Below are positions 53,457 through 55,016 of a stretch of 64,000 nucleotides of DNA, one piece after another (positions within the stretch are counted from its first letter, which is position 1; every line of letters starts with the position of its first letter). The position numbers were made by a program, and so were the translations under genes. The stretch lies in assembly GCF_000337555.1 (NCBI RefSeq), contig NZ_AOIO01000017.1:62001-126000 (forward strand), written 5' to 3'. This stretch comes from Natrialba asiatica DSM 12278 (GTDB lineage: Archaea > Halobacteriota > Halobacteria > Halobacteriales > Natrialbaceae). Below the pieces are notes generated by a model. That model did not search any database and was not told the DNA's origin. It saw nothing but the letters and a program-made list of their open reading frames with translations.

Positions 53457-53880
53457 TCTGTACGTCTCGGGTGTGCTAGCACCTGGAGCATTTCGCGTAT
53501 GCTCGTTGCGGCTTTCGTTCTATTCGTTGATATGTATTGGCTTATAGCTACTGCTGATTGGCCAAGTAGGAGGGGGTGTGCTGGTATTCTCGCGGATATT
53601 GAATCCACTCGGTGCGAGGAATAGATCAGCCACGTCCGGTAGCTGGTAGCACGGTTTCGTTATTCAGGATAGTCGGAACCGTCCGTGAAGATCCACGTTC
53701 AGTATCGGTCAAAGGTGATGAATTGAGGAGTCAATGCACCGATAGCTGTCGAGGATAGCATGCTGAAGACAGGGGGCGTATGCGGTACGGCGACTAACTT
53801 TATTTCGGCCCGTCAACGCTGAACTACCCGAAAGAGAAGGTGCTTACTGCGCACATTCAATATCGACATCTTGGAGTTTT
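53457..53880. other. AT-richer gap, no convincing gene
   Basis: 424 bases between a plus-strand and a minus-strand gene, both ending here. A 41-codon plus-strand frame at 53499-53624 begins with a hydrophobic stretch (MLVAAFVLFVDMYWLIATAD), but lacks a promoter and good codon bias, so it is not called. No repeat or element was recognised. Confidence 0.4.
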
Positions 53881-54699
53881 CTACTTTAATAGAGTCTGAC
53901 GGATGCGTTCTACTATTGTTTCCTCATCAGCTATTTCGACTGGTTCTTTCCCGCCGTCCCTCATCGTTTCTCTCGTGTCCTCATCATCGTCTTCTCCTTC
54001 TCCGAACATTTCGTCAGCCTCCTCACCGCCTTCTTCGACCATGTCACCAGTCTCCTCACTGCCTTCTCCAAACATCTCGTCGGTCTCCTCACTGCCTTCT
54101 CCGAACATTTCGTCGGTCTCCTCACCGCCTTCTTCCATCATCTCGCCAGTCCCCTCACTGCCTTCTTCGACCATTTCGCTCGCCTCTTCACCTCTTTCTT
54201 CGACCATCTCAGCTGTCTCCCCACCACCCTTTTCGATCATCTCGCCCGCCTCTTCGCCACTTTCTTCGACCATCTCACCGATCTGTTTACTTCCCTCTTC
54301 GATCTGATCGCCGAGTCCCTCGCTGGTCTCTCTAATTCGATTGGCGACGTTCTCCGTCGTCTCCTCCGTCTTTTCTGCTACTTTTTGACCACCCTTCTGG
54401 ACTTGATCAGCCGCGCCGTGGGTCATTCCCCACGTACGGCTTTTGACCGTGTCAGTGACTCTACGACCCTGCTTTGAGGAACCATCGCCTTCGGAACTGA
54501 CTTTTTCGCTTATTGAACCAAACCAATCTCGGAGCACGTAACCAAGGCCGATGAGGGTGATTACATCAATTAGCCGGGGGTGAGACCTCCCCTCTTCAGT
54601 AGTCATTCTCTCCTCATCGCTCGTCGTTCTTCTTCCGTGTCTGGTCGTCTCGTATCCGGTCGTCTCGTCTCCGGTCGTTATGTCTGGCTTATTTGACAT
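53881..54699 (-). CDS. Acidic repeat protein: ten 11-residue repeats, LEA-like
   Basis: 272 residues, about a third glutamate or aspartate. Residues 1-40 are polar and disordered (GDETTGYETTRHGRR). A hydrophobic stretch of 43-61 (LIDVITLIGLGYVLRDWFG) is a membrane anchor, followed by a linker. Residues 131-240 are ten tandem hendecads, consensus E-M-V/F-E-E-G-S/G-E-E-T-x, for example EMVEERGEEAS, EMMEEGGEETD, EMFGEGSEETD. Eleven-residue repeats favour amphipathic helices and occur in LEA-type stress proteins. A short charged C-terminus (IVERIRQTLLK) ends it. A GTTTACTG box lies 26-33 bases upstream. Function unknown; hydration or desiccation protection is conceivable. Confidence 0.85.
   Translation of the reverse strand: MSNKPDITTGDETTGYETTRHGRRTTSDEERMTTEEGRSHPRLIDVITLIGLGYVLRDWFGSISEKVSSEGDGSSKQGRRVTDTVKSRTWGMTHGAADQVQKGGQKVAEKTEETTENVANRIRETSEGLGDQIEEGSKQIGEMVEESGEEAGEMIEKGGGETAEMVEERGEEASEMVEEGSEGTGEMMEEGGEETDEMFGEGSEETDEMFGEGSEETGDMVEEGGEEADEMFGEGEDDDEDTRETMRDGGKEPVEIADEETIVERIRQTLLK
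53980..54309 (-). repeat. 33-base tandem repeat array, ten copies
   Basis: DNA encoding the ten hendecads of the 53881-54699 gene. Unit length is 33 bases with degenerate copies; two adjacent units (residues 197-218) are almost identical, so copy number may vary between strains. Confidence 0.8.
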
Positions 54700-55016
54700 C
54701 GATTAATAGTCTGGTTTCTGCAGACAGTAAACTTCGGCCGGCACCGGCAAGTCAAAAAAATGACGGCTGAATTGCTATTCTCCAAACAGTATGTAGCGGA
54801 TAACAGAAGGTATGAAGCGCATACCAGAGATAGAAACACGCAGGTTTACTTGGTAGAAGACTGCCCGGTCTGAACACCACACAATTCTGAGAGGGTTTTT
54901 CGGTGGTCACTAAGCACCGTAGGTACCGGATCAAGGAGCGCAGTTTCAGCACTCTGGCCGAGAGTTGAAACTGCAGTACCAACGACTGCGCCGAGAACGA
55001 ATCGCAGCGTCGACTG
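54700..55016. other. Intergenic region with hairpin, no clear gene
   Basis: 317 bases between two minus-strand genes. It carries the TATA-like box of the repeat protein, a strong hairpin at 54940-54974, and a 37-codon plus-strand frame at 54760-54873 (from MTAELLFSKQ) that reads coding-like but is too short to call. Confidence 0.4.
54940..54974 (-). terminator. Long two-part hairpin downstream of Elp3
   Basis: GCAGTTTCA (54940-54948) pairs with TGAAACTGC (54966-54974), and inside it ACTCT (54951-54955) pairs with AGAGT (54961-54965): 14 paired bases with a 2-base bulge. It begins about 42 bases past the Elp3 stop, with no U-tract, so it is a 3'-end structure or terminator. Confidence 0.5.

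Follow-up and report, generated by a model that had tools for sequence, protein, structure and literature searches.

A haloarchaeal acidic-repeat gene as the probable cargo of a transposase-less insertion cassette with IS5-type ends

The window analysed here, a 64-kb stretch of DNA from Natrialba asiatica DSM 12278, carries an open reading frame for a strongly acidic protein with tandem 11-residue repeats (hendecads). It raises the question of whether such a gene is a settled part of its host genome or a traveller. An earlier note on this DNA, pointing out that 11-residue repeats occur in proteins of the late-embryogenesis (LEA) type, had proposed a tethered, highly charged helix with a possible use in hydration stress or membrane-surface scaffolding. 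Our analysis points to the traveller: we put at roughly two in three the probability that the gene is the sole gene of a non-autonomous mobile insertion cassette of haloarchaea that an IS5-family transposase moves in trans, and that its product is a membrane-tethered acidic brush. On sequence grounds, it behaves as travelling single-gene cargo rather than as a fixed stress gene of N. asiatica.

As summarized in Table 1, the array lies in a genuine reading frame, as the earlier note had held. Tandem Repeats Finder scores it at 254 with a 33-bp period (8.5 copies, 53996-54276) and at 283 when read at 99 bp, against 67 for the best unrelated tandem array of the 64-kb window. The ten hendecads reported previously can be recovered as nine clean units preceded by a tenth in-register unit at residues 131-141, and the run begins at about residue 98 if looser 11-mers are counted. 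Their consensus needed correcting, however, to E-M-[VIMF]-E-E-G-[SG]-E-E-[AT]-x. The claim that position 2 is always methionine or phenylalanine does not describe the array: position 2 is methionine in all nine clean units, and it is position 3 that is occupied by V, I, M or F. Across the repeats the hydrophobic moment reaches its maximum at 98 degrees, as in an 11/3 helix (z = 8.0 versus shuffles). Drawn on an 11/3 wheel, Met2, Gly/Ser6, Ala/Thr10 and Val3 share a side that lies opposite the Glu positions. The net charge is -51 for the whole protein and -43 over the nine repeats.

Table 1. Features of the cassette copy in the window (window coordinates).
Feature	Position	Strand	Evidence or remark
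Acidic hendecad-repeat protein gene, 272 aa	53881..54699	minus	ATG start; homologues in relatives keep an intact frame
Weakly hydrophobic segment, residues 43-61, motif GLGYVLRD	54517..54573	minus	KD19 1.28; conserved in relatives
Less acidic 11-mers ahead of the array, residues 98-141	54277..54408	minus	moment z ~5 at 98-100 degrees
Nine clean acidic hendecads, residues 142-240 (33-bp DNA tandem array)	53980..54276	minus	repeat and moment analysis
C-terminal tail DEETIVERIRQTLLK	53884..53928	minus	kept in 10/13 copies, out of frame in 3/13
Conserved upstream cassette part	54700..54876	minus	left edge TGTTCAGACC at 54876, common to the G069 copy and the second G108 copy
Conserved downstream cassette part	53696..53880	minus	right edge ACTGAACG at 53696, common to the G069 copy
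Decayed remnant, inner part of IS5-type terminal inverted repeat	53757..53805 (approximate)	plus	profile positions 40-88, E 0.003

The gene has close relatives of uneven occurrence. A search of 61 related genomes returned five near full-length relatives of 72-80% identity. When the non-repeat core was used as a profile, full-length copies turned up in 12 of 125 Natrialbaceae genomes spanning nine genera, a thirteenth, weak match being left out of this count, and no close relative appeared elsewhere among 392 genomes of the class. The hosts include Natrialba sp. SSL1 (G001) and Natrialba hulunbeirensis JCM 10989 (G003). Plasmids carry the copies of Halostagnicola larsenii XH-48 (G072), Natrinema sp. 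DC36 (G113) and Natronosalvus caseinilyticus (G142), as well as a further full-length copy in Halomontanus rarus, beyond the 12 genomes. A provirus origin was considered and is unsupported, as no viral contig encodes a relative.

Comparison of these copies indicates that the reading frame is maintained while the array varies in length. The repeat number, which the earlier note had suggested counting, varies between about 6.5 and 20.5 units; the SSL1 copy contains eleven DNA-identical 33-mers, and gain and loss of 33-bp units may be how the number shifts. The frame is retained throughout, apart from the last ~20 residues in the N. hulunbeirensis, Natrinema DC36 and H. rarus copies (3/13). Frame loss in loci L022, L051 and L139 falls at about one place, just ahead of the conserved ERIRQTLLK C-terminal tail. 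With a median core dN/dS of 0.38 (range 0.17-1.16), coding constraint on the gene appears present but moderate. Upstream non-coding divergence (0.23) is near synonymous divergence (0.19), and we therefore claim no extra regulatory conservation.

The history of the gene differs from that of its hosts, for which a single gene, Elp3, served as the reference in both the divergence and the tree comparison. Median synonymous divergence (pS) is 0.19 for the cassette versus 0.43 for Elp3, and of 66 genome pairs, 65 show the smaller value for the cassette; for G030 and G069, which belong to different genera, the values are 0.03 and 0.36. In the Elp3 tree the three Natrialba fall together (0.99), whereas the cassette tree scatters them and groups the window copy with those of G007, H. 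larsenii, G025 and N. caseinilyticus (0.926). Only one of nine splits is common to both trees. On the basis of the lower divergence and the discordant trees, the cassette has spread horizontally, moving between genera more recently than the genera diverged.

The genomic sites are likewise those expected of a mobile unit. Each copy occupies a different locus with different neighbours, and clustering of the ORFs within 6 kb found only the cassette gene in common across loci, apart from small families that recur sporadically at two or three of them. DNA similarity extends beyond the gene for ~170-340 bp upstream and ~110-230 bp downstream, in non-coding flanks with common limits, and every copy retains flanks of its own, ~170 bp upstream and ~190 bp downstream; the left flank of the window copy diverges from other copies at -177. 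No cassette copy encodes a transposase, the passenger gene being its only gene. The site in the window, an interval between aldolase and Elp3 genes, is without the cassette in six other Natrialba species of the set, among them SSL1 and N. hulunbeirensis, which carry it elsewhere in the genome. The window also contains a ~92-bp sequence (53462-53555) that is dispersed in many copies across Natrialba genomes at 72-91% identity. Relatives lacking the cassette have it in their aldolase-Elp3 interval too, and in G005 a possible ORF of 33 codons overlaps with it.

Terminal inverted repeats (TIRs) and target-site duplications (TSDs) suggest the means of movement. Inverted repeats of the GGCTCTGTTGAAATCC type bound the H. 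larsenii and N. caseinilyticus copies. The former, 1402 bp in total, runs from GGCTCTGTTGAATTCC, 405 bp before the start codon, to GGCTCTGTTAAAATCA after the stop, and is flanked outside its ends by TGGTCCTG and TGGTCCCG, a putative 8-bp TSD matching at 7/8 bases. The latter has the same type of ends and a putative TSD of ACTCTAAC and ACTCTGAC, again matching at 7/8 bases. In SSL1, TIRs at -1450 and +275 bound a 2.87-kb insert. N. hulunbeirensis is without this stretch, so the site is empty in the sister species; the TSD of the SSL1 insert is not preserved. Clean empty sites were not obtained for G071, G069 or G030, the junction alignment of the 'empty' G071 site being unclean. Across the cassette regions, a TIR profile gave 61 hits in 13 regions versus 2 in reversed sequence.

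Could these ends be bystanders? The gene might be an ordinary accessory gene that homologous recombination and plasmid transfer have repeatedly added and removed, with transposon ends nearby simply because they are common in the IS-rich plasmid regions of haloarchaea. Several copies do reside on plasmids, TIR-like ends are frequent in Natrialbaceae genomes (dozens of matches to the TIR pattern versus none for the reversed control), and complete TIR pairs matching those of autonomous insertion sequences are found in the H. larsenii, N. caseinilyticus and SSL1 copies but missing from most others. The non-coding flanks nevertheless stop at common limits even though the neighbours differ at every locus, and TIR pairs with putative 7/8-base TSDs bracket the cassette in two genomes, whereas the reversed control pattern yields no such bracketing pair. 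We therefore consider this explanation unlikely and prefer that of a cassette with IS5-type ends.

The scarcity of complete pairs may itself reflect decay. A decayed inner end lies ~77-125 bp past the stop codon in nearly all copies, the window copy included, so the outer intact ends of the H. larsenii, N. caseinilyticus and SSL1 copies look as if they had been captured later, around an older pair that has decayed. The window copy has no recognisable TIR or TSD, there is no intact TIR anywhere in the 64-kb window, and the genome to which it belongs has only truncated IS5 transposase relatives. It is thus probably an end-decayed copy that is now immobile.

A source of transposase is at hand in the family. 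IS5 transposase relatives are present in 12 of 12 cassette host genomes, and Natrialbaceae also contain intact IS5-family elements whose ends match and whose 8-bp TSDs are perfect. One of them, a 1238-bp insertion sequence with a perfect 8-bp TSD, sits on the same H. larsenii plasmid as the cassette, and its right end resembles the cassette's left end. Among 30 TIR-pattern loci examined, nine, located by the TIR alone, were complete elements with TIRs and TSD. One of these codes for an IS5-family transposase (NF033579, E 2.5e-65; PF01609). The other eight, all in Natrialbaceae genomes (L109, L110, L119, L123, L125, L126, L135, L137), have no transposase and enclose other genes: DUF2306-like, alpha/beta-hydrolase, AsnC-type regulator, two HNH-like, lipoprotein-like and others, the HNH, lipoprotein and L137 labels being our readings of the translations.

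On the basis of these elements, a mechanism can be proposed in which an IS5-family transposase supplied in trans would move the cassette, plasmids would ferry it between species, and cassettes with decayed ends could be re-mobilised by capture between newer ones. In its wider form, on which we judge the odds to be even, Natrialbaceae may possess a stock of single-gene cassettes that lack a transposase and share IS5-family ends. These would move in trans, pass from genus to genus on plasmids and, once decayed, be re-mobilised by nested capture between new ends. Their cargo would include the acidic hendecad protein alongside DUF2306-like, alpha/beta-hydrolase, transcription-regulator, HNH-like and lipoprotein-like genes.

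A fixed, membrane-tethered LEA-like protein for hydration stress, along the lines of the earlier note, is a distinctly unlikely reading of this locus. Its acidic 11-mer repeats with strong 11/3 periodicity, and the haloarchaeal relatives that combine a transmembrane (TM) segment with 11-mers, would suit such a role. The distribution is instead patchy and mobile, the gene being absent from four of seven Natrialba genomes, and no LEA family appears among the Pfam matches up to E = 10. A strong profile match to an annotated family of another fold was also looked for, and none exceeds its Pfam cut-off: Apolipoprotein A1/A4/E (PF01442) reaches 31.9 bits versus a gathering cut-off of 90, a match due to the 11-mer periodicity, and YtxH (PF12732) reaches 19.1 bits versus 37.5. 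NCBIfam matches to Ceg14, Wag31, GvpQ and phasin were rejected as far below cut-off and reflecting a charged low-complexity helix, and a PDB sequence search returned mainly designed helical bundles with weak E-values. AlphaFold, which the earlier note had suggested as a check, gave no informative fold for three sequences (pLDDT 46, pTM 0.18).

The product of the cassette gene can be described only in conditional terms. The hydrophobic stretch noted at residues 43-61 is real but weak: its best Kyte-Doolittle 19-mer is 1.28, versus mostly 1.5-1.9 in relatives, and it contains D45, R57 and D58. Because of this weak hydrophobicity, a full transmembrane helix is not assured in the window copy. The core profile also picks up distant relatives in other haloarchaea, whose TM segment is clearer, bears a GLGYxLR motif (GLGYVLRRR in chromosomal relatives, the counterpart of GLGYVLRD here) and is followed by milder hendecads. 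These observations are compatible with the earlier idea of a membrane-associated acidic amphipathic helix, although the anchor is weak, no LEA family matches, the Apolipoprotein and YtxH scores lie far below their cut-offs and the pLDDT is 46. An uncurated haloarchaeal family (L090, L092, L095, L096, L098, L103, L044, L046) has a GxGYxLR-like TM segment followed by 11-residue repeats, some members having two hydrophobic segments. Several Natrialba, the window's own genome included, encode a secreted-looking protein of 429-435 aa (L002 in the own genome, L009, L011) in which a long stretch is rich in Asp, Asn and Glu and the C terminus carries 11-residue repeats (NHTEETVESTL, GDHIEETA).

From sequence only, we infer that the job of the product is that of a membrane-tethered acidic 11/3-helix brush related to the chromosomal TM-plus-hendecad proteins. 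Its N-terminal segment would attach it to the membrane, and at molar salt its repeats would adopt an amphipathic 11/3 helix, one face made up of Met, Val, Ala and Gly and the other of Glu only. Long 11-mer arrays of perilipin-4 are unfolded alone and their lipid-droplet targeting stops once the net charge is made negative (PMC5889406). On this ground we read the acidic array as a hydrated brush, kept at the membrane through the N-terminal segment, rather than as a lipid-coating helix, the weakest step of the argument.

One feature of the locus is not explained by the TIR model. The window, G069 and second G108 copies all start at a CCTGTTCAGACC-type sequence, at the same left nucleotide, and the window and G069 copies finish at ACTGAAC(G); this boundary, GTTCAG...CTGAAC, is a short inverted repeat that may mark an inner unit. 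At L050, G108 has two tandem cassette copies, the second without the N-terminal part of the gene and joined to the first at a CCTGTTC boundary. It is quite improbable that a second, inner mobile unit from CCTGTTCAGACC to ACTGAACG was moved by another recombinase and the IS5-type ends captured later. Three independent copies do break at one left nucleotide and two at one right nucleotide, with both G108 copies joined at the CCTGTTCAGACC-type boundary, but no consistent target duplication accompanies them, no recombinase was identified, the inverted repeat comprises just 6-7 exact bases and unequal recombination between similar end sequences could yield the G108 tandem.

If the gene is indeed cassette cargo moved by IS5-family transposase, several implications follow. 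The spread of a conserved and strange cargo gene across genera by way of IS5-type ends, and the eight further complete cargo elements located by their ends alone, suggest a general trade in single genes among salt-lake archaea. Such mobility would explain why genes of this kind look like orphan hypotheticals without neighbours. In addition, the copies provide a natural series of acidic 11-mer arrays, from 6 to 20 units, that is useful for testing helix behaviour in high salt.

To our knowledge, transposase-less cargo cassettes have been described mainly in bacteria. The cassette would be a variant of transposase-less elements already known, mobile insertion cassettes and miniature inverted-repeat elements (MITEs), from which its archaeal host, IS5-type ends and long conserved cargo gene set it apart. 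Mobile insertion cassettes are defined as transposase-less elements with passenger genes, alongside MITEs and transporter ISs (PMC3129680, PMC2266710); MIC231 of Bacillus cereus is one, according to the passages of PMC2266710 that cite Chen 1999 and De Palmenaer 2004. MIC231 likewise has IS-type TIRs and a target duplication around passenger genes and no transposase, and is moved in trans by a related IS, a mode of movement that we propose here for the cassette. Its ends are of the IS231/IS4 type and its host is bacterial, whereas the present cassette has IS5-family ends, an archaeal host and other cargo, and most of its copies are end-decayed. The haloarchaeal literature that we found describes MITEs of the ISH2 type with one short ORF (PMC3119063, PMC10264941). 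ISH2 is also transposase-free, with a short non-transposase ORF, and is mobilised in trans by the ISH8 transposase; it differs in measuring ~520-530 bp and producing mostly 10-bp duplications (PMC3119063, PMC10264941), whereas the cassette has putative 8-bp duplications, a larger unit and a conserved long cargo gene.

The protein can be compared in the same way. The 11-mers of perilipin-4, apolipoproteins and alpha-synuclein are similarly long tandem arrays that fit an 11/3 helix, vary in length and are expected to be unfolded alone (PMC5889406); the cassette protein differs by its charge of -43 over nine repeats, and no sequence homology has been demonstrated. YtxH-like proteins (PF12732) share the order of N-terminal hydrophobic segment and 11-residue repeats, with the cassette protein below their gathering score. 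The haloarchaeal TM-plus-hendecad proteins (L090, L092, L095, L096) have the same G-x-G-Y-x-L-R motif in a hydrophobic segment followed by 11-residue repeats; chromosomal-type relatives differ from the cassette protein in their stronger TM segment and repeats richer in Ala and Gln.
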